A stretch of DNA of 64,000 nucleotides from Nitrospinae bacterium CG11_big_fil_rev_8_21_14_0_20_45_15 (GTDB lineage Bacteria > Nitrospinota > Nitrospinia > Nitrospinales > VA-1). The position numbers were made by a program, and so were the translations under genes. Below are positions 43,364-64,000 of this stretch, piece by piece. Below the pieces are notes generated by a model, which had not been told where the DNA came from, did no database searches, and worked only from the letters and a program-made list of their open reading frames with translations. How positions within the stretch are numbered: the first letter of the stretch is position 1; each line of letters opens with the position of its first letter. The stretch lies in contig PCWG01000028.1 of NCBI GenBank assembly GCA_002787235.1, positions 62,001 to 126,000 of the forward strand. The letters are read 5' to 3'.

Positions 43364-43969
43364 TTACTCCCCCGGTTCCATCGGATTCGGGCCACGCACC
43401 GCCCGGACCCCCCCGTGACGGCAAACAGTAAAACGGCGGATATGAGACATCCCATTGACAAAATAGAAGGTCCGACCGCAACAATCCGTCAACTTCGTTT
43501 TGCTGAAATCTGAAGACCAGTACCAGTAAGCCGCACCATCCGTAAAAATTGAGTGCAGACTCATAGGGCTTTCAGGATCGTGATCGAAGGCCATGATATT
43601 GTCGATAGCATTGTCATAGATGCTGGCCAATTCTGCGATGGAAGGAAGACGCCAATCTTCATAACCGCCTGTAGTGGAATTTTCAACGTATTGCAGAGAG
43701 TCGTAAAAATTCAGACAATGTTTCAGGTCCGCGTAGCTGTCCGTGCGCGCCCAGGTGAGACCCGTTTTCAAATCCGTTACCGTATCGTCGCCATTGTCGC
43801 GAAGTTTCAAGCGAGATTTCGGTTTATCCGGGACCTGCCATTGCGGAGCGATGTAGCCATCGCGCGGGCCAATATCGTCGATGCCCGCAGACCAGCATGG
43901 AGCAGGGCCAAACAAGCCAAGAGTCAAAACCAGAAGCAACAGCAATTTCTTTGCGAAGAAGCCGACCAT
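43364..43969 (-). CDS. DUF1566 exported protein
   Basis: A 201-residue secreted protein. The signal peptide ends near residue 28 (CWSAG). Residues 55-190 form the DUF1566 (Lcl C-terminal) domain: VTDLKTGLTWAR, Y-E-D-W-R-L-P-S-I-A-E-L, YWYWSS and the final VRAVRG. Family members are often exported, with no known activity. A GAGG site precedes the ATG. Confidence 0.85.
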   Translation of the reverse strand: MVGFFAKKLLLLLVLTLGLFGPAPCWSAGIDDIGPRDGYIAPQWQVPDKPKSRLKLRDNGDDTVTDLKTGLTWARTDSYADLKHCLNFYDSLQYVENSTTGGYEDWRLPSIAELASIYDNAIDNIMAFDHDPESPMSLHSIFTDGAAYWYWSSDFSKTKLTDCCGRTFYFVNGMSHIRRFTVCRHGGVRAVRGPNPMEPGE

Positions 43970-44251: not shown

Positions 44252-44327
44252 GGGCCGTTAGCTCAATAGGTAGAGCAACTGACTCTTAATCAGTAGGTCC
44301 TCGGTTCGATCCCGAGACGGCCCACCA
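44252..44327 (+). tRNA. tRNA-Lys (anticodon CTT), integration target
   Basis: GGGCCGT acceptor pairs with ACGGCCC; anticodon stem around CTCTTAA with CTT; T-arm CTCGGTTCGATCCCGAG; encoded CCA at 44325-44327. Its 3' 47 bases, from 44281 on, are repeated at 52925-52971, so it is the attachment site of integrative elements and remains intact. Confidence 0.96.
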
Positions 44328-44484
44328 ATAATTCAAGGAGTTACGAGAAATCGTAGCTCCTTTTCTTTTTGAATGGTCCACTGGTGGTCCATTTCATTCC
44401 AAAAACTCACAATAAACCGCAAAACCACCCCCATAATTCGTAGTCTGTATTTAGTTTCAAGATAACTTTGAATTCTAATCGGAC
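44281..44484 (+). repeat. Element 1 left boundary: att/flank direct repeat copy 1
   Basis: From the tRNA-Lys anticodon stem through 157 bp of following DNA, this segment matches 52925-53120 with a few substitutions and an 8-bp gap in copy 2. A T-rich terminator hairpin (GGAGTTACGA/TCGTAGCTCC, 44337-44370) is in both copies. Similarity fades near 44535, just where copy 2 enters the integrase promoter. Confidence 0.88.
44337..44370 (+). terminator. tRNA-Lys terminator
   Basis: Ten-bp stem with one G-T pair, GAAA loop and a TTTTCTTTTT tail, 10 bp past the CCA. A nearly identical hairpin is in the duplicate at 52981-53014. Confidence 0.85.
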
Positions 44485-44745
44485 CCACTGCTTATAACTG
44501 TATTAATTTAAACATGTAACCACTGATTGAAACGTAGCTATTAAAGTTTCATTCAAACTTTTCCTGACAGTGCAGGCCTTAATCTTGCTTTAAATTTCAC
44601 ATCAGCACTTGGGGTGATACTACGTCGGCGGTATCGGGACCCCAATTGGATAAATCAAGAAAAAGCGGACCTCTTGATGCACAGCTGTGCCGCTACTATC
44701 CATAGCATCATACTCTATGGGGTATGTCTGGCTTACCTTGCTCTA
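44485..44745. other. Degraded element-1 flank without a gene
   Basis: Between the att flank and the pseudogene I see no supported gene. The part to about 44535 still matches the integrase promoter region of element 2 (ACCACTGATT at 44519, against CCCACTGATT at 53165). Confidence 0.5.
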
Positions 44746-45500
44746 TTAATAATTGTCTATCTGCAGGGGGTTAGACGTTACAACCGGAAGATCCCTCACA
44801 ATTATTTGATTTGTGATGTGCTGTCGACTGCATCTGACGCTGTAGCACCAGCGTCCGTGTAAACTGTCCCTATCTCTACCGCCACCTCCGACGGGACCAT
44901 TCAGGATGATCACGGGTGCCGTATTGTTAGGGATATTAGCGGCTTGCTGTAGTTCAGGAGAACATAAATGTGGGGCATTGAAATGTTTCAACCAGTTACA
45001 TGCAACTTGGCCAAAAGTCGATTGGAAGAGTTTCCATTCGGCATCTGTATAACAGTCATTCAGGGTCACGCTCGTGGAATCGGTGGGAATGGCAGGCGTT
45101 TTTGAATACTTATCCGTTTTCACGGTGACGCGGTCTTTCAACTGATCCAGGAGTTTTTCTAGAGAAGGCAAGTCTAGCGCATTCGGTGCTTCGTTACCCT
45201 GAAAAGCATCCAGTTCGCCCGCCAGAAATCGGAATAAATCCCCGGTTTTGATTTGAGGATCGGGATTACAGAGATAAGGCGGATTCAAGGTGCCATCGGG
45301 TAAGATTTCTACATTTAGAACAGGGGCGGGAGGATCAAAACAAAATGTGACAATCGGTGGAGTTCCTGCAGGTGTTTGCGCCCAGGAGTTGGAAACAAAG
45401 CCCAGCCCGCATATAAAGGAAACTCAGAAGCAAGAGGACCAGCGTTGCACGAAAATATGGCCTCAAGTCTGATGATTTATCCCAATTTCAAAAAAAACAT
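44746..45500 (-). pseudogene. Decayed inverted copy of the 45944-47473 exported-protein gene
   Basis: The frame from 45288 reads P-P-Y-L-C-N-P-D-P and LNDCYTDAEW, matching PYLCNPDPT and LTDCYTVSDL of the neighbouring gene. Upstream the similarity continues (GLGFVSNSWAQ against GLGFISNAWAQ) in the same frame until a TGA, and farther upstream (K-S-S-D-L-R against Y-S-S-G-L-R) in another frame, so at least one frameshift and small deletions break the signal peptide. The 3' end diverges after residue 150 into a scrambled tail. The copy is inverted with respect to the intact gene. Confidence 0.78.
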
Positions 45501-45943
45501 AAATACCCCCATTTAAATAAATAAGAAATAAATTTCTCTGATTGTGTGCTACTTTATGCTCAGACTTACGATATGATACCGCCAGAGCTTTAGCTTCTTG
45601 GCAAAATACCCATATATATAATATTGAAGAAACATAACAAAAAAGAAACGCTTAATAAAGCGCAAAAGGTGCACCTGTAATACGTTACGGTACTCGGCGT
45701 CTCTTCTTGCAAACTCATAAATAAACTATATAAAAGACGACGGATTCAAATACTTTGTCTGAGCTTAGTATTTGGCATAAAGTTAGAGGGCAAGTTCGTT
45801 CGACTGTGGTGGGCGGATCAAACATTCGGCCAAATAATTGACTGTGATATGAGTTGAAAAGGTGATAGACAAGCTGAAAAGTGTTTTATAAAAAGCACTT
45901 AACAGATCATCCATATCTTTAAAAAACTAAGGGTGTGAGCTTT
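45501..45943. other. AT-rich leader of the exported-protein operon
   Basis: About 440 bp between the pseudogene and the operon, both reading away from it. It contains a 22-bp imperfect palindrome and presumably the promoter; no other feature is clear. Confidence 0.45.
45879..45900 (+). promoter_or_regulatory. Imperfect palindrome (candidate operator)
   Basis: AAGTGTTTTATA then AAAAGCACTT: arms AAGTG/CACTT and TTTT/AAAA with one unpaired base. It lies 43 bp before the ATG at 45944. No factor is suggested. Confidence 0.3.
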
Positions 45944-47473
45944 ATGTCTTTATTTGAAAATGGTAATTACTCATCAGGCTTGAGGTTTTTATCTCGTTCA
46001 GCGTTGGTTCTTTCGCTGGTGTTTTCCCTCATTGCAGGGCTGGGTTTTATTTCCAACGCCTGGGCGCAATTACCTACAGGAGTGCCCAAGCCTCCGGAAT
46101 TAAAATTCCAAAATGTTCCCTCGCAAACCAAAAAGTTAGCGGGCGTGCAGTTAAATGCCGATGGCACGATAAACATGCCTTATCTCTGCAACCCCGATCC
46201 TACAGCTACAACCGGGGCTTTCTCTCGTGATATGCAGACATTGATAACCATTTTTCAGCAAAAGGCAATCACAACTAATGATGCACGCGGTCTGGCAGTC
46301 CTTTTACAGAACTTGATAATAGCAAAAAACAATAAACAGAAGAATATAAATCAAGGTTTTATAAAACCACCGGGTGCAAGAAGCCTGACTCTGACTGACT
46401 GTTATACTGTCAGTGATTTAGGAATATTTGACACTGCTTTTTCGCAAGTAGAAAGTTTGTGGGGCACTTATATTAAGAAACTAACCGCACTGACTGGCGT
46501 ACCGACCGCAACGAACCCAGTTGTTGCGCCACCGACCACGGCCCCAGCACCAACGACCGTTGCCAAAGCACCACCCGCTCCTGTCTGCGATACAACAAAA
46601 CCACCGATTCCTCGCCCCATTCGACCGGCTAATCTTCCAGCGGTTTGTCCAACGGTTAATCTTGGTACACCTCTTTCTGACAAAATAAGTGCCCAAAACT
46701 GTAATCTTGCTCTTCAAAAGTGGAATCGGGATTTGGCGGCTTGGGAGGCCCTTCCGTGTAAGTTTGCGGCCCCACCGCCTCCGCCACCGGTTGTCAAAGC
46801 ACCACCCGCTCCTGTCTGCGATACAACAGGACCACCGATTCCTCGCCCCATTCGACCGGCTAATCTTCCAGCGGTTTGCCGACCATCCACTGGTCCGGGT
46901 GCGAGTACGAATCCTTTAGCCCGTATTCAAGACTCATTCTGTAATCTTGGTCTTCAAAAGTGGAATCAGGATTTGGCGGCTTGGGAGGCTCTTCCGTGTA
47001 AGTTTTCGGCCCCACCACCGGTTGTCCAGGCACCGCCTCCACCACCGGTTGTCCAGGCACCGCCTCCACCACCTGTAGTAGTCCAGGCACCGCCACCGGT
47101 TGTCAAACCACCGCCAGGCCCTGGTCAGGTTCGCATCTGCGATCAAGCAAGTCCCACTTGTTGCTTCGATGTTGATGAAGCGGGTTTGGGTAAATTTATT
47201 CTTGGTCCAACGGCAAGAGCAACATGTGGAAATACCCTGGATGGGGCTTTCGAGAGATGCGCTATACAATTGATTGTAGATGACCAAAAAACGTCGAATC
47301 TTCCTCCGATATCATCTCCTCGACCGGCTCGACCTCTCTTCGTTCCAGCGAGTGGAATTTGCCCTACAGCAGCAGGGTTTAAACGCGGATTTTGTGTAAG
47401 CGCAAAGAAAACTTGGGATGACCAGTTGGCGGTTTGGCAAAAGGCCAATCCGTGTCATCCCAAAATACCGTAG
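45944..47473 (+). CDS. Exported proline- and cysteine-rich repeat protein
   Basis: A 509-residue exported protein; no known family recognised. A signal peptide ends near ISNAWA-Q (about residue 41). Residues 60-175 form a globular domain with NPDP and DCY motifs, shared with the inverted pseudogene. Then come two nearly equal modules of roughly 80 residues beginning PAPVCDTT and ending W-E-A-L-P-C-K-F, each with four cysteines, a proline-rich spacer (PPPPPVV repeats) and a third diverged module at the C-terminus (W-Q-K-A-N-P-C). Disulfide-linked surface modules are likely. First gene of a tight four-gene operon on element 1. ATG 45944 was preferred over an in-frame GTG three codons before. 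Confidence 0.75.
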   Translation: MSLFENGNYSSGLRFLSRSALVLSLVFSLIAGLGFISNAWAQLPTGVPKPPELKFQNVPSQTKKLAGVQLNADGTINMPYLCNPDPTATTGAFSRDMQTLITIFQQKAITTNDARGLAVLLQNLIIAKNNKQKNINQGFIKPPGARSLTLTDCYTVSDLGIFDTAFSQVESLWGTYIKKLTALTGVPTATNPVVAPPTTAPAPTTVAKAPPAPVCDTTKPPIPRPIRPANLPAVCPTVNLGTPLSDKISAQNCNLALQKWNRDLAAWEALPCKFAAPPPPPPVVKAPPAPVCDTTGPPIPRPIRPANLPAVCRPSTGPGASTNPLARIQDSFCNLGLQKWNQDLAAWEALPCKFSAPPPVVQAPPPPPVVQAPPPPPVVVQAPPPVVKPPPGPGQVRICDQASPTCCFDVDEAGLGKFILGPTARATCGNTLDGAFERCAIQLIVDDQKTSNLPPISSPRPARPLFVPASGICPTAAGFKRGFCVSAKKTWDDQLAVWQKANPCHPKIP

Positions 47474-47497
47474 TGCTGTGATGATAGAACCGGTGGA

Positions 47498-49969
47498 ATG
47501 ACAGAAAAATTAAAATCATTCAGGGGTGAACTGTTTTTTTACCGATTCTCGGTGATTGCAGTCCTGTTTTTTTCAGGGACCCTTTCATTATCTTTCGCCC
47601 AGATACCAACACCGCCGTCCATAGGCAGTGTTACGGGTCAGAGCCTGAGTTTTCCCGGTGGCATTCAGTTGGATTTGACGGATTTGGGGCAGACACCAAC
47701 CTCGTCGAACGCGCCGTTAAATAGTGTCCCTGGGGGGCAAGCACCGCCAGTGCCCACAAGCGGGACTACACCAGCGATTCCATCTACCAGCGCGCCCGCT
47801 CAACAGACGGGATTGGGACAAACAACAACCCCATCGAGCGCGCCTTTAAACAATCTACCTGGAGTGCAAGCACCGACACTGCCCACAAGCGGGACTACAC
47901 CGGCGATTCCATCTATCGGCGGGTTCTCCCAAGCCAATGGAGTGAAATCTCAGATCACCACAACTGTACAAAAGCAAACTCAAGTTGCTCCCAGCTTAAC
48001 TCCGCCGTCTGTAGGCAGTCTTACGGGTCAGAGTCTGAGTTTTCCCGGTGGCATACAGTTGGACTTGACGGAATTGGGACAGACACCAGCACCGTCGAGC
48101 GCGCCGTTAAACAATGTCCTCGGGGGAGGGCAAACACAGACACTGCCCACAAGTGGCGCAACGGTAGTGGTTCCATCTACCAGCCTGCTCGCTCAACAGG
48201 CCCAGGTTATACCCAGCCCAACACAGCAGACGCCACAGCCACAGTTGTCAGAATCGCAGATCAATCAGATTCTTGGACGTACGACACCGACGACACCAAC
48301 ACCAACAGGTGCCTCCCAAAGCAATGGAGTGCAATCTCAGATTGCCGCGCCTGTTCAACAACTGCAATCCAGTGTGCCTGCTCTACAGAAAAATCAAGTC
48401 CTTCCCAGTCCAACACTGCCAGTGCCCACAAGAGGAATTACTCCGGTGATTCCATCTACCAGCGGGTTCTCCCAAACCAATGGAGTACAATCTCAGATCA
48501 CCGCGCCCAGCTTAACACCGCCGTCCATAGGCAGTGTTACGGGTCAGGGTCTGAGTTTTCCCGGTGGCATACAGTTGGATTTGACAGAATTGGGGCAGAC
48601 GCCAAGCCCTTCGAGCGCGCCGTTAAATAATGCCCCTGGAGGGCAAGCATCGACAGTACCCACAGGTGGCGCGACGTCAGTGATTCCATCTACCAGTGCG
48701 CCTGCTCAACAGCCGACCCAAGTTACGTCCAGCCCAATACAGCCACCTGCGGGCGGAGTTACGGGTCAGAGCCTGACTTTACCGAGTGGAGTGCCCTCGG
48801 ATTTATCCAAACCGTCGGCTCCAAAGCAACTGTCGAACGCGCAGATCAATCCAACTCTCGGACAAAATACACCGACCGGAGGGGTTACGCCGACAGTGCC
48901 ATCTATCAGCGTGCCTGCTCTACAGCAAACTCAAGTCGCGCCCAGCTTAACACCGCCGTCCATAGGCAGTTTTACGGGTCAGAGCCTGAATTTCCCCGGT
49001 GGCATACAGTTGGACTTGACGGAATTGGGACAGACAACAACTCCGTCGAACGCGCCGTTAAATAATGTACTCGGGGGAGGGCAAACACAGACACTGCCCA
49101 AAAACGGCGCGACGGTAGTGATTCCATCTACCAGCCTGCTCGCTCAACAGCAGACTCAGGTTATCCCCAGCCCCACACAGCCGCCGCTGCCGCAGTTGTC
49201 GGAATCGAAGATCAATGAGATCCTTGGTCGTACCACACCGACAGCACCGACAGGTGGTGGGTCCTCCCAAACTAATGGAGTGCAATCTCCTGCGCCTGTT
49301 CAACAACTGCAACCCAGCGTCCCGGCCCAACAGCAGGCCCAAGTTGCGCCCAGTCCAACACAACCAACCGTTGGCGGAGTGACTGACCAAAAATTTCCAG
49401 GTGGCAGATCGTTGAAAGTGACACCGCCTGCCGAAGTACTTCCGCCACCTGTGGCAGAGCGAAAACTAAAACTTAAATCGCGCAAGGTAAAACTGTTGCG
49501 AGTCATCCCGCAGAGTTCAGGAACCGCCACCGCCAACCCATTTAACTTCACAGCTCTGGAATCCATAATTGGAAAGGCCTCAAAGTCAACTCCCCTGACC
49601 TTGGTGGGCACAACGTTTCCTGTGCAGGATAACGGTGCGAATACTCTTTTTCTTGCGATTGATCCGAACGGAAACGGTACAAATACTTTTCGCTGGGTTG
49701 TTTCCGCAGGTGCCGTTTCCGGTCAGGCTATGTCTGTTGCCGGGCTTGGCAACGACACCGGTAATATTTTTAATGCGGGGCAATTCACCCTCATTTCACC
49801 AACGACGGGAACTGTCATACAAGAAGGAAATAATACTGTCATCCTGAAGCGCAATGACGGTGTATTTTTTACGGTTACTTTCGACTTTGATGATGATGGG
49901 GTGGGCGAGTCGGACATCAGATCTTCAACGGGTACAAAATGCGGCGATAGCCAAACGAACTGCCCATGA
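47498..49969 (+). CDS. Exported 823-residue Pro/Thr/Gln-rich repeat protein
   Basis: No family recognised. A signal peptide ends near LSLSFA-Q (about residue 36). Residues 38-650 are low-complexity and repetitive: a module of V/F-TGQSLSFPGG-IQLDL recurs four times (DNA near 47650, 48040, 48560 and 48995), with about 120-180 residues between copies, and a second motif S-x-x-Q/K-I-N-x-I-L-G recurs three times. A globular C-terminal domain (about 690-823) has N-G-A-N-T-L-F-L-A-I-D and D-F-D-D-D-G-V-G-E-S, a possible calcium-binding Asp loop. It starts 24 bp after the first gene and overlaps the third by 4 bp. Confidence 0.75.
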   Translation: MTEKLKSFRGELFFYRFSVIAVLFFSGTLSLSFAQIPTPPSIGSVTGQSLSFPGGIQLDLTDLGQTPTSSNAPLNSVPGGQAPPVPTSGTTPAIPSTSAPAQQTGLGQTTTPSSAPLNNLPGVQAPTLPTSGTTPAIPSIGGFSQANGVKSQITTTVQKQTQVAPSLTPPSVGSLTGQSLSFPGGIQLDLTELGQTPAPSSAPLNNVLGGGQTQTLPTSGATVVVPSTSLLAQQAQVIPSPTQQTPQPQLSESQINQILGRTTPTTPTPTGASQSNGVQSQIAAPVQQLQSSVPALQKNQVLPSPTLPVPTRGITPVIPSTSGFSQTNGVQSQITAPSLTPPSIGSVTGQGLSFPGGIQLDLTELGQTPSPSSAPLNNAPGGQASTVPTGGATSVIPSTSAPAQQPTQVTSSPIQPPAGGVTGQSLTLPSGVPSDLSKPSAPKQLSNAQINPTLGQNTPTGGVTPTVPSISVPALQQTQVAPSLTPPSIGSFTGQSLNFPGGIQLDLTELGQTTTPSNAPLNNVLGGGQTQTLPKNGATVVIPSTSLLAQQQTQVIPSPTQPPLPQLSESKINEILGRTTPTAPTGGGSSQTNGVQSPAPVQQLQPSVPAQQQAQVAPSPTQPTVGGVTDQKFPGGRSLKVTPPAEVLPPPVAERKLKLKSRKVKLLRVIPQSSGTATANPFNFTALESIIGKASKSTPLTLVGTTFPVQDNGANTLFLAIDPNGNGTNTFRWVVSAGAVSGQAMSVAGLGNDTGNIFNAGQFTLISPTTGTVIQEGNNTVILKRNDGVFFTVTFDFDDDGVGESDIRSSTGTKCGDSQTNCP

Positions 49970-49977
49970 CGAATATG

Positions 49978-50469
49978 ATGAAAATAATACAAACAGGAAT
50001 TTTGTTAGCACTCTATTGCTGTGTTCTGGCGACGCCTGCTTCTGCGTTTGAGTTCCGCAGTTTTACAAGTATCAGCAAGCCGATGAAGGTCCCTGAAGGT
50101 GCCACGCGACCGGATAAACTGGAGCCACTGGATCCGCAGATCATAAAACAAGCGGTGTATGATCTGGCTAAGGCCTGGAACGGACAAGGGTTTTCGGAGT
50201 TGATCGACCCCGATTTTGCGAACGCGGAGCAGTTGCTACTGGTCATCACTAATGATGTGCCTCGGAACGCGCGGTTGGAAGTGCTGTCCGTGCAGAGTTT
50301 GAGCACTCTGGATCAATTTATCAAAAAGGTAGAGGATGGTGAGGACCGCACCAGCACGGTCACCGCGACAGTGCGTATGCAGATCGTCTTCAATGATCCG
50401 GTCAACGGATTTCAACGCCTTGAAGGAACCAATGAACTGCTATTCAGAATCGAAGAGGAATTCAGATGA
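49978..50469 (+). CDS. Small exported protein of the element-1 operon
   Basis: A 163-residue protein (167 from ATG 49966, which overlaps the previous stop by 4 bp). Signal peptide ends near ATPASA-F. The mature part is mixed helix and strand with no known motif or cysteine beyond the leader. Its position between the repeat protein and the beta-barrel, both with 4-bp overlaps, makes it a probable periplasmic partner of the barrel. Confidence 0.7.
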   Translation: MKIIQTGILLALYCCVLATPASAFEFRSFTSISKPMKVPEGATRPDKLEPLDPQIIKQAVYDLAKAWNGQGFSELIDPDFANAEQLLLVITNDVPRNARLEVLSVQSLSTLDQFIKKVEDGEDRTSTVTATVRMQIVFNDPVNGFQRLEGTNELLFRIEEEFR

Positions 50470-52691
50470 AAATCAATTCCTCTATGAAATTCTCAAAACT
50501 GAAAATTGGAGTCCTGGTATGCCTGTTGTGGTGTTTTCCAAAGACGGTGTTGGCCGAAGATAATATGCTGGTCGACGCTTACGAAAACACCTTGCCTGAA
50601 TGGTCGTTCTCTGGACAAAATACGTTAAAAATGGAGGAGTATGTAAGAAATGGAAAAAAAAGCGGGTCTCCTTACCCTTTTGTCGGTTTTCAGCTCTCCA
50701 ATGATTACAACCTGAATGCAAAGAGGAAAATTTCCCCGTACGAGGATGTTGAGATTCAAGCCTTCGGCGTGATCAATGACTCGGAGTACCGCAGTACTGA
50801 GAACGGTATGGTTCTGGAGCGCGGTAAAATTCAATGGCAGAAGGGCGACGCAAACATCCCCTTAAAGATGGAGGTTGGGGATTTCTTTGGTCAGCAAACA
50901 TCCCGGACCTTGCAACGATCCCTGAAGGGAATTCAGCTAGAGCTTCAGCCAGAATTTAATGTGGAGGGGCAAGAGCATTCGATACAGTTTTTCAGTGGGG
51001 TTTCCAAGGGGGCCTACAGGGATTTGGAAAAAAATGTTGAGTTGTTCAGTGGAGCTTCCTGGCTGATGCAGGACAAACAGTATGGCTCCTTTACGTTTAC
51101 TACAGTGCACAACTACAAGGAAAATACGCTGGCGCGTAATATTGAACGAAATCAGGTGGTCAGTTCCCTCGCCTGGGGTCGAAAATTCCAGTTGTACAAT
51201 TTGTTTCAATTCGAGGCTGAAGGAGAATTGGCTAAGTCCTTCAGTGATGCGGGAACCAATGGAACGGGGCGCGAGGATGACAAAGGGATTTTCGGACAAA
51301 TCAATGGGAAGATGATGAACCTGCCTTTGACTTACCGGATTCGATATGAATATTATGGCGATGATTTCCGCCCCGGGGGAGCAACGATCAGTTCGGACCA
51401 GGAAACCAAGGAAGCGCATTTAGGTTGGCGTTTCGATAATGGAATGCAGGTCCGTACCCGTTTGCAGAGATTCACCACAAACGTGGAATCATCAAACACA
51501 ACAGATACGGATGTCTGGGGTCTGAACGTCAACGGTCCCTTATGGGACAGAGGAGATTTGGGGGCAATTACCGGCCAGGTCGATTTTTTCACCCAGGGAG
51601 TAGAAACCCGGAGGGGCTTGTCGACCAACAATCAAACTCAAAACATTAACGCATCGTTGAATGTTCCTGTAGTCAGAGACGTCACCTTTCGTCCAGGAAT
51701 GGTTCTGACATTTGCCAAAAATCAGAACACGAATGTCTCCACAGCAAACAGGCAGTTTAGCAGTGCGGTGGATTACAGTTTTACAACGGCGGGACTCAAT
51801 GGCACCGTTTCGCCCAGTTTAACCTACCAGCGCAATGCAAGCGGAGCCGGGACCCTTGATGAAAATGTGAATCCTTCGCTGTCTCTGTTCTTGGCAAATC
51901 AAGTCCATAGTTTGCGTATGTCTTACAATGCACAAGTGCAAAACGCTTTCGGCTCAACGAGTGCTATTGATTCGACCACACAACAGTCTTCCCTTAATTA
52001 CGTATACACCTGGAAACAGCACCAATTTGGTCTGGAAGCCAACCAATTCAGCCGAGACCCACGACCGGGACTGGATTCGGATGCTTATCGAGTGGGCTTG
52101 TCCTGGACTTTTAATTTTGATCGGCTTGCTAAAGCGGCAGTTCAAACCACAGACATGGCCGTTGCACCAAGGGAGACTGGTTCAGGCCCCTTGCGTATGA
52201 TAGACTTGCCTCCGGGAGGCTCATTGAAGGAAGCTCAAGCAATCCTGCAGGCGAAAGGTTTCCGAAGCCCGGTAGAACGAGCCGGACTTTTTATCTATGA
52301 AGGACGATTCTTAAACAGCATTGAACGTCGGCAACGATTGGGCTTGCTCACTACAGGCAACCGGATCGATCAATCTGTTCTGGTTATCGACTTCCAAGCA
52401 GTGGGTGATGTAGACTCGGTTTCGCAGACCTTTGAACGCGTTCGCAAAATCATGAACCAACGTTATGGGTCTCCAAATTTCTTTATTGAAGAAGGAAATT
52501 TTTCAAACAATTTGTCAAATGACCTGACCTCAGGAAGTTTCAAGCGCATCGTTGAATGGACAACACCATACGGTCGATTGCGTTTCGGTATCCCTCGCAG
52601 AACAGACGGCCTCATACGGATTGAAATCCAGCATGCCAAAACCTTCCCGCCCGTGGCCAACTCCAACTGGTCTATAGAACAGCTAAGGTAA
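50466..52691 (+). CDS. Outer-membrane beta-barrel-like protein with periplasmic C-terminal domain
   Basis: A 741-residue protein with a signal peptide (CLLWCFPKTVLA-E, about residue 30). Residues 40-540 alternate short polar turns and amphipathic strands with aromatic residues at strand ends, as in large outer-membrane barrels. The G-D-F-F-G-Q...S-L-K-G-I-Q-L-E-L pattern near 140-160 resembles the G-D...R-G element of usher-type pores, which is a resemblance only. The last 190 residues are soluble-looking (P-P-G-G-S-L-K-E-A-Q-A-I-L-Q...). It starts by a 4-bp overlap and ends the operon. A role in export or anchoring of the first two proteins is inferred from operon position. Confidence 0.68.
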   Translation: MKINSSMKFSKLKIGVLVCLLWCFPKTVLAEDNMLVDAYENTLPEWSFSGQNTLKMEEYVRNGKKSGSPYPFVGFQLSNDYNLNAKRKISPYEDVEIQAFGVINDSEYRSTENGMVLERGKIQWQKGDANIPLKMEVGDFFGQQTSRTLQRSLKGIQLELQPEFNVEGQEHSIQFFSGVSKGAYRDLEKNVELFSGASWLMQDKQYGSFTFTTVHNYKENTLARNIERNQVVSSLAWGRKFQLYNLFQFEAEGELAKSFSDAGTNGTGREDDKGIFGQINGKMMNLPLTYRIRYEYYGDDFRPGGATISSDQETKEAHLGWRFDNGMQVRTRLQRFTTNVESSNTTDTDVWGLNVNGPLWDRGDLGAITGQVDFFTQGVETRRGLSTNNQTQNINASLNVPVVRDVTFRPGMVLTFAKNQNTNVSTANRQFSSAVDYSFTTAGLNGTVSPSLTYQRNASGAGTLDENVNPSLSLFLANQVHSLRMSYNAQVQNAFGSTSAIDSTTQQSSLNYVYTWKQHQFGLEANQFSRDPRPGLDSDAYRVGLSWTFNFDRLAKAAVQTTDMAVAPRETGSGPLRMIDLPPGGSLKEAQAILQAKGFRSPVERAGLFIYEGRFLNSIERRQRLGLLTTGNRIDQSVLVIDFQAVGDVDSVSQTFERVRKIMNQRYGSPNFFIEEGNFSNNLSNDLTSGSFKRIVEWTTPYGRLRFGIPRRTDGLIRIEIQHAKTFPPVANSNWSIEQLR

Positions 52692-53242
52692 AAATAGTAT
52701 AGCGATTGAAGCCGAATTTCATGGCGTTAAGGGTGGATTGAAAATGTACCAGCATGGCGGAGTAAAAGCACTCCAATCAGGATTTTAATCCATAATTTTT
52801 AAATGACACTTGCATCTCAAATTGAGCAATATTCCTCAATAATCAGCAAAAATAAATTTATCCAGATTGATTGAATTTGTTGTTGTAGATTGTTGTCGGG
52901 TGTTGGTAGGTGTTAAATAAGGTGGATTCTTAATCAGTAGGTCCTCGGTTCGCCCCCGAGACGATCCAGCAATAATTCAAGGAGTTACGAGAAATTGTAG
53001 CTCCTTTATTTTTTTAATGGTGGTCCATTTCATTTCCAAAACTCACAACAAACCGCAAAACCACCCCATAATTCGCAGTCTGTATTTAGCTTCAAGATAA
53101 TTTTGAACTCTTGTTGGACCATAATTGGACCAATATATTATAAATATATATATATAAGCATTTACCCACTGATTTAATATCAGGTGTTGACAGGTTTTGT
53201 CCTCTGTTGTATGCTCTAATTACGAATAGGAGAATAAAACTT
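52692..53242. other. Intergenic region with second att copy and integrase promoter
   Basis: Contains the att/flank repeat (52925-53120) and the AT-rich integrase leader. Positions 52692-52924 hold no supported gene. Confidence 0.7.
52925..53120 (+). repeat. att/flank direct repeat copy 2 (boundary of elements 1 and 2)
   Basis: Near-copy of 44281-44484: the tRNA-Lys 3' part with some changes (e.g. CGCCCCCGAG for CGATCCCGAG) and its terminator and flank. It lacks the 5' half of the tRNA, so it is not a functional tRNA gene. Confidence 0.88.
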
Positions 53243-54310
53243 ATGGCTATCATCGATGAAAGAAAAAGTAAGAGCGGAAAAGTATCCTACCGTGTTCGCA
53301 TTCGCCTAAAAGGCCACCCCACGCAATCGGCAAGTTTCAAAAGAAAAACTGATGCCCAAAGATGGGCCGCCTCTACTGAATCGGCTATTCTCGAAGGTCG
53401 GCACTTTAAACAATCTGAAGCCAAACGCCACTCTCTCGCGGATCTTATAGACCGCTATATCCGTGATGTCCTGCCGCAAAAGTCGGATTCCATGCAAAGG
53501 GATCAATACACTCAGCTTACTTGGTGGAAAGATAAAATTGGCGAAAGGTTATTGGCGGATGTGTCTCCGACGTTGATCGCCGAGCACCGGGACATTCTGT
53601 TAAATCAAAATGGCTTTCGAGGTAAGAAGCGTTCTCCTTCTTCAGTAAATCGTTATCTCGCAGCACTCTCTCATGCGTTTTCCATTGCCGTTAAGGAATG
53701 GGGGTGGATCGAGGATTCCCCTATCAGAAAAGTACAAAAACCCAAAGAGCCTAGAGGCAGGGTAAGATTCTTGGATGATGAAGAACGCGAAAACCTGCTA
53801 AAGGCCTGTCGGGAAAGCGAAAATCCTATGATTTTTCCTATCGTTGTTTTCGCGTTGTCCACGGGAGCCAGAAAAATGGAGATTCTCAACCTCACTTGGA
53901 AAGACATCGACATAAATCGAAAAGTGGCAATTATTCAGGAATCTAAAAACGATGAACGGCGTGCTCTTCCTCTCGCTGGCCAAGCCTTGGAGGAAATCAA
54001 GAAACTTGCGAATATTCGGAGAATTGGCACTAATCTCGTATTCTTGGATCAAGCCGGGGAGAAACCCGTAAATATAAGAATCGCTTGGGAAAAAGCATTG
54101 GTGGATGCAAAGATAAAAGATTTTAGATTTCATGATCTCAGGCATAGCACGGCTTCATACTTGGCCATGAATGGGGCCACGCTAGCTGAAATTGCACAGG
54201 TTCTCGGTCACAAGACTTTGCAGATGGTAAAGCGATATTCCCATCTTAGCGATCAGCACACAGCTGGGGTTATAACACGAATGAACGAAAAAATATTTGG
54301 AACAAAATAA
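53243..54310 (+). CDS. Tyrosine-recombinase integrase
   Basis: Integrates and excises an element by strand exchange at a tRNA 3' end. The 355-residue protein has an N-terminal arm/SAM-like region (1-170) and a catalytic domain with the Arg in STGARKME near 222, the H-x-x-R motif in FRFHDLRHSTASY near 297-309, and the nucleophile Tyr in KRYSHLS near 335. ATG 53243 was chosen: AGGAG lies 9 bases upstream, whereas the longer frame from 53207 has none. It lies 123 bp past att copy 2. Confidence 0.95.
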   Translation: MAIIDERKSKSGKVSYRVRIRLKGHPTQSASFKRKTDAQRWAASTESAILEGRHFKQSEAKRHSLADLIDRYIRDVLPQKSDSMQRDQYTQLTWWKDKIGERLLADVSPTLIAEHRDILLNQNGFRGKKRSPSSVNRYLAALSHAFSIAVKEWGWIEDSPIRKVQKPKEPRGRVRFLDDEERENLLKACRESENPMIFPIVVFALSTGARKMEILNLTWKDIDINRKVAIIQESKNDERRALPLAGQALEEIKKLANIRRIGTNLVFLDQAGEKPVNIRIAWEKALVDAKIKDFRFHDLRHSTASYLAMNGATLAEIAQVLGHKTLQMVKRYSHLSDQHTAGVITRMNEKIFGTK

Positions 54311-55344
54311 TGCCGGGAAAAAAATCTAATGAGATTCAAATTGAGAAAATCAAAACCTCTGGAAGTGGCTGGGATTTGTCAGTTTTCAGAGAGAAATCAC
54401 CTAAGGCAAAATTAGCATCTCTAAGCATGTTTACGTATTCGTGGTTAGATGAATATGAAGAATGGGTTAGAAAATTTAAAGACTCAACCTCGGGAGGCAA
54501 ACTTATTGAAAGGCTACAATATGAAGTAGGCTTGGAGAAGGGAAAGATTAAAGAAAGTGATGAAGACTACAAGCATAATTATCCGGTCTTAGAAAGAGAG
54601 GTGCTGAAAACTTGCTTTTTGGCCAAGCGGTATAGTGCGAAAAATAATGCGTCAATTAAAGAGGCGAATAGTGCTAGCAAACAGCTAAAGTATGACACCT
54701 CCATGGCTAAAAAGAGTATTCCTGACATTTTGAAATTTAGTGAGCGATATCCAGCGTTGATCCATTCATTGATGGAAGGTTGGAAATCCTATCAATATAT
54801 ATCTCAAGGTTTGAATAAAGGGCCATCTACAATTCCGAGCAAACTCTATGCCCCTAATTTCCCCGCTGAAAATCTGACGAAGCTCTTTGATAATTTTCTT
54901 ATGTATTTTCAATTTGAACTGAACGGATTAAGTCGTAACTCGTCTATTGGAAAAGATAGTCGCTTAGTTGGCCCTTTGATTTATTCAAGTCCTCTTCCGC
55001 GATCAGCCACTCGCGACTCAGCGTCTAATGGCTTGCTAATCAATATGTTGTATTTGCTCACCCATTACCAGAATCCTCTAGTTCCCCAAGAAGAACTTCC
55101 TCGAGATAAAATTCCCCAGCAAATTGCTCTCCCTGGGAGAGTCAGAAGGTTTCCAAAAGGCCGAAAGCGGCATCATGAACTGGCTTTGGATTTTGTACTT
55201 ACTACCCTTCCTTTTGAAAAATGTTCCATTAATATCTCTAAGTCAAAAGATCCACATAAAGAAGGGCGAAAACGGATTTCCTACCTCCTCAACAAGCAAA
55301 AAGCTCGTCTTACCTTCTGGCCAGATGAATTCCCCGCACATTAA
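54310..55344 (+). CDS. Element-2 protein of unknown function
   Basis: A 344-residue basic protein with no signal peptide and no family that I recognise. A long helical N-terminal half (1-200) is followed by a basic motif stretch (RVRRFPKGRKRHHELALDFVL near 275-295) that could bind nucleic acid. Its ATG overlaps the integrase stop by one base (TAATG), so the two are coupled. Typical of accessory genes in integrative elements. Confidence 0.55.
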   Translation: MPGKKSNEIQIEKIKTSGSGWDLSVFREKSPKAKLASLSMFTYSWLDEYEEWVRKFKDSTSGGKLIERLQYEVGLEKGKIKESDEDYKHNYPVLEREVLKTCFLAKRYSAKNNASIKEANSASKQLKYDTSMAKKSIPDILKFSERYPALIHSLMEGWKSYQYISQGLNKGPSTIPSKLYAPNFPAENLTKLFDNFLMYFQFELNGLSRNSSIGKDSRLVGPLIYSSPLPRSATRDSASNGLLINMLYLLTHYQNPLVPQEELPRDKIPQQIALPGRVRRFPKGRKRHHELALDFVLTTLPFEKCSINISKSKDPHKEGRKRISYLLNKQKARLTFWPDEFPAH

Positions 55345-58801: not shown

Positions 58802-60658
58802 CTACTGGGAACAACGGAACCCAAAATTATTGGTGCGAATCGAGGGAACGAGCCTATAGCGGTCCGCAGAACGCATACTGTCCGGAAGAGTGATCCACGA
58901 CCCGCCGCGGAGGACGACTTTACCTCCGCCCTCATAATTACTTGATGTCCACTCCCATACGTTGCCCGCCATGTCGTACAATCCGAATCGATTCGGTTTC
59001 TTCTGCCCCACAGGATGCGTTGTATTGTCTGAATTATTACCCGTCCAGGCATAGGCTCCATCGTACTCATCGCCCCAGTAATAAGCTGTCGTTGACCCCG
59101 CTCGCGCCGCAAACTCCCACTCCCATTCCGTCGGCAAACGTTTGCCAATCTTTTCGCAATACGCTTTGGCTTCGTGCCATGTCACTTCTTCCACGGGGCG
59201 ATTCGATCCCTTGAAGTGCGATGGATTTTTACCCATCACGCGCTCGTATTGTTCCTGCGTCACCTCATACGAATCGATATTAAAAGACCGCACTGTCTCT
59301 TGATGAGGCGTCTCGTCGGTGTACCAGCTTCGTTCGCATCTAGCAAAATATTTTTTGCACTTTGCATAGCCTTGATCGGCATCAGCTCCCGCCGTATATT
59401 CGCTACCCACGATATGAACCATACCCTCGGGGGGTTTTATCTGAGGTCGCTCATCAACAGGCAAACGCGCCATCTTCTCCCAGAACTCCAGCTTCTTCTG
59501 CGCTTCTTCCAACTTGGGATTATCGGTGGAGTATTGATTAATGAACTCAGACCACACCTTCACCTTTGATTCCGAAGGGAGTGAGGACTCTTTCATCTTG
59601 TCTACGTCTTCGAGTTTGGCGTAATAGGTTTCTATCTCCGCATTACGCTCCGCTGATTTGCGCCTATCGCGTTCGGCCTGTTGTTTCTTCTCATCCGCTT
59701 CCCGCAATATTCGATCCAATTCGGATTCCTGCCGGGTTGGCACCGGAGCGGGAGATGGTGTTGGCGCGGGAGCTGGTGCCAGAACAGGAGAGGCAGGGAT
59801 ACTTGATGTTTGAGGGACTAACGATGCCATCCTTATGAATACAAACTCGCCGCCTTCATCACCCGCGTTCTTTATCGGTTGGGTGATCGGCATCTGCTCT
59901 GAGTTGTTCCGCACAACTGGTCCGATGCGCTGGTAAATATCTCTAGGCGTGAGATAGGGCTTATCGCTTTCCTTCAACTCCTTTAGAAAATGATAGGCGA
60001 ATATACTATGACCGCCGGAACCTGCATCTTCAACAGGGGTGAGGTTGCCTGAGGTCATACCCCATCTTGATCGCTCTTTGTATAGCGTGGCGTAGAATTT
60101 ATTATTGATCGGCGGCAAGGATCGGGCTTCGCCGAATAGCGATCCAGAGAAACAACTGTCGGCAACCAGAAGAACATGCCTTGCGGGAATGGCTTTGATG
60201 TATTGCTGGATGACTGCATTGTTCATGTAGGTGGAGGGGTCTCCGCCTTTGGCGTTGTGAGGGACCCAGTAGCCGCTTCCTGTAAGCGTATCTAATTCCC
60301 CGTGCCCGGCGTAATAAATCAAAACGCTGTCATCTTCTTTACTCTGTACAACCAGACTTCTTAACTCCCGAATGATACTGCTTTCGTTGGCCTGTCCATC
60401 GGTCAGGACCGCTACATTGGTGAATCCAAAAGTCGATTGCAGGACTTGTGAGAGTTCTGTTGCATCGTTCACCGCTGTTTTTAAATCCGGGATGGCACTG
60501 TCCTGATACTCGTTGATCCCAATCACCAAAGCGCGATAGGACCCTACTGTCCGGCCAGACGCAGATTCCAGCTTGGATACGACTTCAATGCCCCTGCTGG
60601 CAAATGCCGAGGCGGGAAGGATTGTCAGAATGAGTACGGTTACGATGAAGCGTTTCAT
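58802..60658 (-). CDS. Caspase-like (C14) protease fused to an FGE-sulfatase domain
   Basis: A 618-residue exported protein. Signal peptide ends near ASAFA-S (about residue 20). The caspase domain (40-275) has catalytic His in YYAGHGE near 117 and Cys in VADSCFSG near 169. A proline-rich, charged coiled linker follows (285-400), then an FGE-sulfatase/SUMF1 domain (about 405-618) with VTWHEAKAYCEKIGKRLPTEWEWE and the final F-G-F-R-C. FGE-like domains in such proteins often bind or display surfaces rather than make formylglycine. The role is unknown. The paralogue at 58477-58707 is truncated. Confidence 0.85.
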   Translation of the reverse strand: MKRFIVTVLILTILPASAFASRGIEVVSKLESASGRTVGSYRALVIGINEYQDSAIPDLKTAVNDATELSQVLQSTFGFTNVAVLTDGQANESSIIRELRSLVVQSKEDDSVLIYYAGHGELDTLTGSGYWVPHNAKGGDPSTYMNNAVIQQYIKAIPARHVLLVADSCFSGSLFGEARSLPPINNKFYATLYKERSRWGMTSGNLTPVEDAGSGGHSIFAYHFLKELKESDKPYLTPRDIYQRIGPVVRNNSEQMPITQPIKNAGDEGGEFVFIRMASLVPQTSSIPASPVLAPAPAPTPSPAPVPTRQESELDRILREADEKKQQAERDRRKSAERNAEIETYYAKLEDVDKMKESSLPSESKVKVWSEFINQYSTDNPKLEEAQKKLEFWEKMARLPVDERPQIKPPEGMVHIVGSEYTAGADADQGYAKCKKYFARCERSWYTDETPHQETVRSFNIDSYEVTQEQYERVMGKNPSHFKGSNRPVEEVTWHEAKAYCEKIGKRLPTEWEWEFAARAGSTTAYYWGDEYDGAYAWTGNNSDNTTHPVGQKKPNRFGLYDMAGNVWEWTSSNYEGGGKVVLRGGSWITLPDSMRSADRYRLVPSIRTNNFGFRCSQ

Positions 60659-61852: not shown

Positions 61853-64000
61853 TTAATTTCTTCCGACAAGGACAAACCCGCCCCAGTTAGCCGGATTCGG
61901 GTATTTCTCTTTTGTTTTCAGTTGAGCCATCCGCAGGGACTCACCCAGTGGATTCTTCTTCAATGCCTGATAAAACTCATTGATTAAAAATGATGTGGCT
62001 TCATCAGAAATAGGCCATAGAGTTGCTATGATAGATTTTGCCCCAGCATACATAAAAGCCCTGTAGAAACCTATTATTTCATCTCCGGCAGAGTATTTCC
62101 CCAGTCCTGTTTCACATGCGCTCAGGACAACAAGAGAAGGTTTTAATCGAAGTTGATAAATTTCTTCCACGGTTAACTTTCCATCATTACTACCATCGCT
62201 TGCTAATAAAAGTGATGAATTGAATGGTTCGTCGTTATCAAAAGTAGCGTGTGTTGCAAAATGAAGAACCTCATAATACGAGGCCTTGTTCTTCAAATTG
62301 GTTTCGCTTGCCTCATTATGTGAGAGTTTTAATGAATCAGGGAAAAAGCTGGATGCATTATCAATTTCGATTTCAGAATAAGGCAAATTCAATGCTTCGT
62401 TATCCAGTGTGGGGTTGCCGAGCAATAAAATACTTTTGGGTGGTTTAGAATCGGAACTTTCATCACTGGCTTCAGGAGTCCAGCCTGGTAAATAATCGCT
62501 GTCATAGGCAATAGACCCGATAAAACCAGATTCATCCTCTGGCTCAAGCGGCCCGATCGGAGATTTGTTAGCTAGATACCGCAATACTGTGGCACTAGGG
62601 ATATAGTTTAAAGTGTAGTCTTCGACCAGGTATTTTTCTCCATCATGCAGTAATTGAAAAGGAAGATAATGAAGAGGACCATGCGGAGAGATAATGATCC
62701 TATTTTTCGATATGCTGATGGCAATAGGTTTGATTAGTATTTTATATAATTCCTGGGACAAATTGAGAAATTCAACCTGACTTTCGCTACGTTTTGAAAT
62801 CAATTCTCTAAAACGGGAAATCTTTTTTATCAACAGCTCTTTTCCTACAGAGACCTCCTTTATCAGTTGAGTTCCTCCAGCCAGCACAATTACGGTTTTC
62901 TCAGGTAAAATAAAATACTGAATAAAGTTGCTGTCAATAGTTGGTCTTGAGAGAATGTTTTCCGTTTCATTAAGCGTAATGGGTTTAGCTTGATCCAGAT
63001 TGTTGAACTCAACCAAAGGTGTGGTCCTGAAGTTAGGGGAAACATGGATTTCTCGGTTTTCTTCAAGGTATTTGATCTGGTCCAGACTGACGGACCCGTG
63101 AGACAGAATTTCGTTCATTTCAGAATTTTTCAGCAAATATCTCTGATAAAAATCGCTTTCTTCATTTCTTGCCAACTTAAGGTCTTTGCTTTCTAGAAGA
63201 TCGGCAAAAACTCTACCCTTTGACCGTTCGATTAAATGAAAAACCTGCCCCGCATCATTTTCCTGAGAAAATATTCTTATGAGTTTTACGTAAATGGAGT
63301 TTCTATGGCCGGAAAATACGATTCGTTTGGTGTCCGAATCAATGGTGGCTCGTTGCTTTTCGATCAGACTCAATGCGTTCAGGTATAATCCTTTTGCGCC
63401 GGAGCTATCGCCTGACGCGAATAAACCATCCCCTCTTGCCACAAAAAAGTCCAACTGTTCATTCGGCCCCATGAACCGGGCATATTTTAACTGCTGAAGA
63501 GTCAGGCTGTTCTTTTGTAGAAAAAAGTTTTCTTCGATGCCCTGTCTAGTTTCAAGATATTTTGCCTGTAGTTCTACTACTTCAGTATGATGTTCATTTT
63601 CTATTTCCTCTCTTTGCTCCGTTCCACTCTCATGCATCTTGGTGCTCAGCTTTACTGTGCCTTCTGCCAAATTCTTCCAATCCTGAGCGGAAAGGGTCTT
63701 TCCTCCATACGCGGCATTATAACCATCGGCGACAGCCACCATACCCAAAAATGTGTAAAGTGCCACCTGTCCAACGCCTTCCAGCACTGTACTTCCAAAT
63801 TTTTTCGTGCCACTCCAGAATCCTAACCACTTCTCATCGGACAACTTGTCTTCATGAAGACTCACCTTAATTTGTTTTTCAATATCATCGATAAAAAATT
63901 TTTGATCTTCATGTCCCTGCTGGATCGCGTTTTCAAGTTTCTCAATAGTTTGATCAAATTTATCAAGATGAGAAATACCTGGTTGGGTTTGGCCCGTCTT
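61853..64000 (-). CDS. CHAT-domain protein, 5' end beyond window
   Basis: The 670 residues from the internal GTG at 63865 plus at least 45 more in-frame codons reach the window edge, so the true start is upstream. A mixed helical part (TPR-like, about 130-260 of the visible GTG frame) leads to the CHAT protease domain at about 370-670: H in HFATHATF near 556 and Cys in LSACETGLGKYSAGDE near 607, the caspase-like dyad. CHAT proteins act in toxin, effector or signalling pathways with TPR partners. It is not in an operon with the caspase-FGE gene but lies near it. Confidence 0.85.
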   Translation of the reverse strand, partial: KTGQTQPGISHLDKFDQTIEKLENAIQQGHEDQKFFIDDIEKQIKVSLHEDKLSDEKWLGFWSGTKKFGSTVLEGVGQVALYTFLGMVAVADGYNAAYGGKTLSAQDWKNLAEGTVKLSTKMHESGTEQREEIENEHHTEVVELQAKYLETRQGIEENFFLQKNSLTLQQLKYARFMGPNEQLDFFVARGDGLFASGDSSGAKGLYLNALSLIEKQRATIDSDTKRIVFSGHRNSIYVKLIRIFSQENDAGQVFHLIERSKGRVFADLLESKDLKLARNEESDFYQRYLLKNSEMNEILSHGSVSLDQIKYLEENREIHVSPNFRTTPLVEFNNLDQAKPITLNETENILSRPTIDSNFIQYFILPEKTVIVLAGGTQLIKEVSVGKELLIKKISRFRELISKRSESQVEFLNLSQELYKILIKPIAISISKNRIIISPHGPLHYLPFQLLHDGEKYLVEDYTLNYIPSATVLRYLANKSPIGPLEPEDESGFIGSIAYDSDYLPGWTPEASDESSDSKPPKSILLLGNPTLDNEALNLPYSEIEIDNASSFFPDSLKLSHNEASETNLKNKASYYEVLHFATHATFDNDEPFNSSLLLASDGSNDGKLTVEEIYQLRLKPSLVVLSACETGLGKYSAGDEIIGFYRAFMYAGAKSIIATLWPISDEATSFLINEFYQALKKNPLGESLRMAQLKTKEKYPNPANWGGFVLVGRN

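Follow-up and report, generated by a model that had tools for sequence, protein, structure and literature searches.

To our knowledge, few routes of protein export across the outer membrane have been described, and all of them have a recognisable barrel family. In two-partner secretion (type Vb, TpsA/TpsB), the gene for a large exported protein stands beside one for an outer-membrane barrel that has a module for receiving the protein in the periplasm (PMC5422565). In the Fap system of Pseudomonas (FapA-F), one operon encodes exported proteins rich in repeats together with their own outer-membrane barrel, FapF, which is trimeric, has 12 strands and carries an N-terminal coiled coil; secretion also requires the C39 protease FapD (PMC5557850). 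Among mobile elements, a cis-mobilizable element (CIME) in accretion has no integrase, carries att sites at both ends and abuts an integrative element at the same site (PMC5704250).

Operon structure and comparison with described systems

In the window (the whole stretch of DNA analysed, 64,000 nucleotides), we identified four co-directional ORFs, O1 to O4, which form a tight operon on the + strand at 45944-52691. O1 and O2 are separated by 24 bp, and O2/O3 and O3/O4 each overlap by 4 bp (ATGA), which is the layout already reported by an earlier sequence-only reading of this DNA.

45944 (ATG) to 47473, + strand: O1, exported Pro-rich protein of 509 aa (ORF, N terminus, composition, motif, repeats)
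45935 (GTG), + strand: alternative start of O1, giving 512 aa
47498-49969, + strand: O2, exported Pro/Thr/Ser/Gln/Gly-rich repeat protein of 823 aa with a non-repetitive C-terminal part
49966-50469, + strand: O3, small exported protein of 167 aa, presumed periplasmic adaptor, with homologues in genomes G046 and G312
50466-52691, + strand: O4, 741 aa, probable outer-membrane beta-barrel (residues ~42-560) and C-terminal soluble domain (~568-741)

The earlier reading had assigned signal peptides to all four products. By eye, each of them does have a signal-peptide-like N terminus, in which a basic or polar beginning and a hydrophobic core are followed by a likely cleavage site (AWAQ, SFAQ, ASAF and VLAE in O1 to O4). 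The first two products had also been called proline/threonine/cysteine-rich repeat proteins. A repeat search found internal repeats in both O1 and O2 (D1-D4, D6, D7 and D10 in the latter), and O1 (15.5 % Pro) contains 18 cysteines, but the term cysteine-rich is wrong for O2 (12.5 % Pro, 12.9 % Thr, 11.5 % Ser) because it has only two. In O1, the repeats follow an N-terminal domain with a spaced-cysteine motif, C-x(69-81)-C[YF]Txx[EDQ].

As the sequence-only reading had remarked, none of the four proteins is recognisable. No Pfam family was found at the cut-off for any of them, and PHROGs, NCBIfam and PADLOC returned no match. A defence or phage function was rejected, as neither PADLOC nor PHROGs gave a match. 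Among solved structures, no significant relative was found for O4 alone or for the O3 and O4 profiles. The sole lead for an NTF2-like fold of O3 was a non-significant match (E=1.2) to a chain called AclR, which we take to be NTF2-like.

With two-partner secretion the locus shares a layout of large divergent exported proteins adjoining a putative barrel and periplasmic module. It differs in the additional C-terminal domain of O4 and in the presumed adaptor O3, which is encoded separately or forms an N-terminal domain of unrelated type. Pfam searches identified no POTRA/TpsB barrel (Omp85 superfamily) in O4, its relative in G046 or the G312 fusion, and no TPS domain in O1, O2 or the scanned exported partners of G046 and G312. 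Like Fap, the operon encodes repeat-rich exported proteins and a presumed dedicated barrel, but the barrel-like region of O4 is ~520 residues long and begins at about residue 42, close behind the signal peptide. Going by the alignment, it is preceded by no Fap-type N-terminal coiled coil, and no peptidase family that could correspond to the C39 protease FapD was found in O1-O4 or the scanned members of the G046 cassette. Chaperone-usher pili are similar in having a small periplasmic protein beside a very large outer-membrane barrel and exported subunits, but in G312 the O3-type adaptor and the barrel form a single fused protein, and no Pfam family for an usher, a PapD-like chaperone or a pilin was detected in O1-O4 or their relatives. 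By these sequence comparisons, O1-O4 resembles two-partner secretion and Fap in layout and lacks the sequence features searched for in either.

Relatives in other genomes

Only three instances of O3-O4 are known, in this genome, in G046 and in G312. A relative of O4 was found in G046 only among 148 related genomes (E=7e-134, ~37-38 % identity). G046 belongs to another family of the same taxonomic order and is represented by one 3.92-Mb contig, in which the genes stand in the same order and in one direction: four small exported O1-type genes are followed by a Pro/Gly-rich repeat protein of 950 aa, an O3 homologue (34 % identity to O3) and an O4 homologue. According to profile searches, O1-type and O4 genes occur in the same two of the 77 genomes of the phylum, this one and G046, and are absent from the other 75. 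O3 was found in this genome, G046 and G312 only, among 387 genomes.

G312 comes from another phylum; seven genomes of that phylum were searched, and the other six have no O3. Here, a single ORF of 722 aa corresponds to O3 followed by the barrel region of O4. With profiles built without G312, the O3 part is recovered at E=3.3e-29 and the barrel part at E=5e-66 (for 100,000 sequences); in blastp, the latter is 25 % identical to O4 over ~520 residues (2e-34). Given the O4 match in G046 and an O3 match in a genome left outside the profile, these relatives are beyond chance. The fusion stops at the end of the barrel region and the C-terminal domain of O4 is absent. The gene directly upstream has a product of 1088 aa whose N terminus is signal-like, and in each of the three genomes a large exported protein is encoded immediately ahead of O3-O4. 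There was no support (E=4) for an O1-like domain in the exported protein of G312.

Because the two proteins occur as a natural fusion, O3 and O4 very probably function jointly. N-terminal extensions of outer-membrane barrels are normally periplasmic, and for this reason O3 is best placed in the periplasm.

The cassette is accessory in both lineages. In G059, which shares its genus with G046, the GAF-GGDEF and MreB genes that adjoin the cassette are present and the cassette itself is absent, which shows the accessory nature in the G046 lineage too; in G049, no cassette gene was found in the 0.9 kb that remain up to the contig end. No relative of O4 or of the O3-O4 fusion was found on plasmids, nor any of O4 in phages. 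GTDB and viral contigs yielded no relative of O3 or O4 in a search with short exact peptide patterns, by which distant relatives can be missed. Two further matches were taken as chance, a 20-bit barrel match in G209 and a stop-ridden match to the C-terminal domain of O4 in G264.

O1-O4 is thus a real, recurrent and undescribed gene set. The sequence-only reading had proposed looking for the four families together in other genomes, and had named homology of the barrel to a known system and independent occurrence of the four genes as observations that would speak against it; our searches found neither.

Prediction of the O4 barrel

Residues ~42-560 of O4 are free of cysteine and show an excess of beta-amphipathic segments over their own shuffles (z=5.0), and the C-terminal part (568-741) shows none (z=0.1). 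The barrel-like regions of all three O4-type proteins (509-525 residues) contain no cysteine, with an amphipathic excess of z=5.0, 2.8 and 2.9; such an excess is absent from the C-terminal domain both in O4 and in the G046 homologue. In the O4-type alignment we counted 33 amphipathic 9-mers, compared with 24.5 +/- 2.9 (maximum 32) in shuffled columns. O4 is therefore described here as a probable large outer-membrane beta-barrel. The amphipathic pattern agrees with the earlier description of a barrel-like protein with a soluble C-terminal domain, but the structure prediction suggested as a check brought no confirmation of the barrel: single-sequence AlphaFold models had a mean pLDDT of 30 for O4 and 42 for O3, too poor for fold searches.

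Divergence of the exported proteins

The large exported proteins cannot be aligned between the three genomes. Outside the repeats, too, no similarity was seen between the C-terminal parts of O2, the repeat protein of G046 and the G312 protein. A conserved platform with divergent cargo is what would be expected of an exporter or display system, but unrelated neighbours could give the same picture.

Upstream of the operon, we identified a decayed relative of O1:

44860-45463 (ends approximate), - strand: O1', decayed divergent paralogue of the N-terminal domain of O1

O1' is ~33 % identical to O1 and is picked up by the O1-type profile with one TGA inside; its reading frame is broken by stops and frame changes. 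A fragment in another frame, YTDAGATASDAVDS, suggests a lost Ig-like tail. The spaced-cysteine motif is common to O1, O1' and the four head genes of the G046 cassette, and among the ORFs of seven loci (107,521 residues) no others contain it. Shuffling the N terminus of O1 reproduced it in 8 of 200,000 cases. As the pattern was drawn from these same sequences, the link that it makes between O1 and the G046 head genes is suggestive and no clean test. Homology between the N terminus of O1 and the head genes was not supported by profile, since with O1 left out the match did not exceed shuffled decoys, and the claim is accordingly limited to the motif.

Mobile setting

The operon lies next to an intact tRNA-Lys gene, with the following features around it:

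44252-44327, + strand: tRNA-Lys (CTT), integration site, intact (ARAGORN)
44281-44485, + strand: attL, consisting of the 3' end of tRNA-Lys with terminator hairpin and flank; the first of the ~200-bp direct repeats (D8, D12, D13; alignment)
52925-53120, + strand: attM, second copy, partly degenerate, where element A ends on its right and element B starts on its left (repeats D8, D12, D13; alignment)
44281-52924, no strand: element A, operon-bearing, 8.6 kb between two att copies
53207-54310, + strand: tyrosine integrase of element B (Pfam PF00589, E=6e-30)

A third copy of the tRNA-Lys att sequence, 50 bp and 100 % identical, lies outside the window at C15:145879-145928 of the contig. The stretch C15:145879-146115 (L035:179-416) holds this copy and, to the right of it, the end of an ORF that, by inspection, seems to encode the C terminus of a further tyrosine recombinase. 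From these repeats, the tRNA-Lys site reads as a tandem array of elements.

Element B bears the integrase and is ~31 kb long; a primase/VapE-like gene also lies to the right of attM. No integrase was found among the ORFs of element A. The att copies at both ends place the operon on an 8.6-kb integrase-less segment in tandem with element B. The earlier statement that the operon is on a mobile element holds in that it lies between two tRNA-Lys att copies, but it adjoins the integrase-bearing element and is not inside it. The arrangement corresponds to that of a CIME, with att copies at both ends, no integrase and an adjacent integrase-bearing element at the same tRNA gene. By its sequence features, element A fits a decayed element, and more specifically a CIME, in tandem accretion. 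A genome of the same genus (G002) has the same tRNA-Lys gene and left flank (76 %), and its contig ends ~130 bp past the tRNA-Lys gene, in differing sequence.

Proposed function and alternatives

Beside the directly observed gene order, signal-like N termini, co-occurrence, O3-O4 fusion and att repeats, we infer a barrel fold, the locations of the products, transport and a cargo role of O1 and O2. O4 would be a large barrel seated in the outer membrane, with O3 as an adaptor on its periplasmic side; in G312, O3 forms the N-terminal domain of the barrel protein itself. Crossing the inner membrane by Sec, O1 and O2 would be taken over in the periplasm by O3 together with the C-terminal domain of O4, and pass through the barrel or stay displayed at it as extended, repeat-rich surface or matrix material. 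The O3-O4 platform would be conserved and the cargo would diverge, and the cassette would be carried at the tRNA-Lys gene by a decayed element that has no integrase and stands in tandem with one that does. That O1-O4 is an accessory surface-protein cassette of this kind, with an O3-O4 platform exporting or displaying O1/O2 cargo, seems to us about evenly balanced between right and wrong. A broader proposal is tentative and on the doubtful side: an undescribed outer-membrane export or display system in at least two phyla, built of an O3-type adaptor and a very large barrel, encoded by two genes or fused, which serves rapidly evolving surface proteins rich in repeats and is borne on an accessory mobile cassette. 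The sequence-only reading had seen a candidate new secretion or surface system here; the conserved unit, the exported proteins, the probable barrel and the lack of a known family agree with it, but secretion or fibre formation stays presumptive.

O4 may instead be an outer-membrane anchor or receptor with no cargo channel, in which case O1/O2 would form a surface or periplasmic lattice held via O3 and the C-terminal domain of O4, contributing to adhesion or envelope strength, and any export would take another route. The gene order and the O3-O4 fusion fit this equally, and the partners are repeat-rich and under little sequence constraint, with additional soluble domains where the barrel is presumed to face the periplasm. 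However, the barrel region is large (~520 residues), and a barrel that is retained although the cargo differs wholly from genome to genome is somewhat more in line with a general exporter than with a specific anchor; we regard an anchor as rather unlikely. It is quite improbable that O3-O4 moves polysaccharide, lipid or solute across the outer membrane and that O1/O2 are separately acting secreted proteins which share the operon. Barrels of the size of O4 are known in other transport roles, and no sequence link exists among the large exported proteins of the three genomes, but such a protein keeps its place directly upstream of O3-O4 in each, and no polysaccharide or lipid genes were found in element A or among the genes listed around the G046 cassette.

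It is also conceivable that the operon is decaying, a passenger that serves no function in this strain today, as would fit the broken neighbouring paralogue O1', the lack of an integrase in element A and the promoter-like sites, which were no more numerous than chance. A scan for terminators likewise gave numbers at chance level. Against the decay reading, the four ORFs are full-length with intact overlaps, O3 and O4 align to their homologues nearly end to end, and differences between the closest copies of the O2 repeats lean to third codon positions (35 of the 68 in three pairs), so that we consider decay very unlikely.

The recurrent pair of presumed barrel and adaptor lies outside every family searched. 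If the export or display reading is true and O2-like proteins are exported, there would be one more outer-membrane export route, and the accessory, mobile distribution would make cell-surface properties swappable as a cassette. The O3-O4 pair offers a small, testable two-gene handle.

Other genes near the integration site

A 344-aa ORF at 54310-55344 (+ strand) touches the stop codon of the integrase and has no match in Pfam, PHROGs, NCBIfam or PADLOC. Element B also encodes a 618-aa protein (58802-60658, - strand) in which caspase-like (Peptidase C14) and FGE-sulfatase domains are joined, and near it lies a gene for a 670-aa protein (61853-63865, - strand) with a CHAT protease domain (Pfam E=1e-62). 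The part of element B outside the window (contig C15, L004:11935-19407) carries type I restriction-modification-like M, S and R genes, named by eye. Just left of the tRNA-Lys gene, at 43364-43969 (- strand), is a gene whose product is exported and contains the Lcl C-terminal domain of Pfam (PF07603, E=1e-16).
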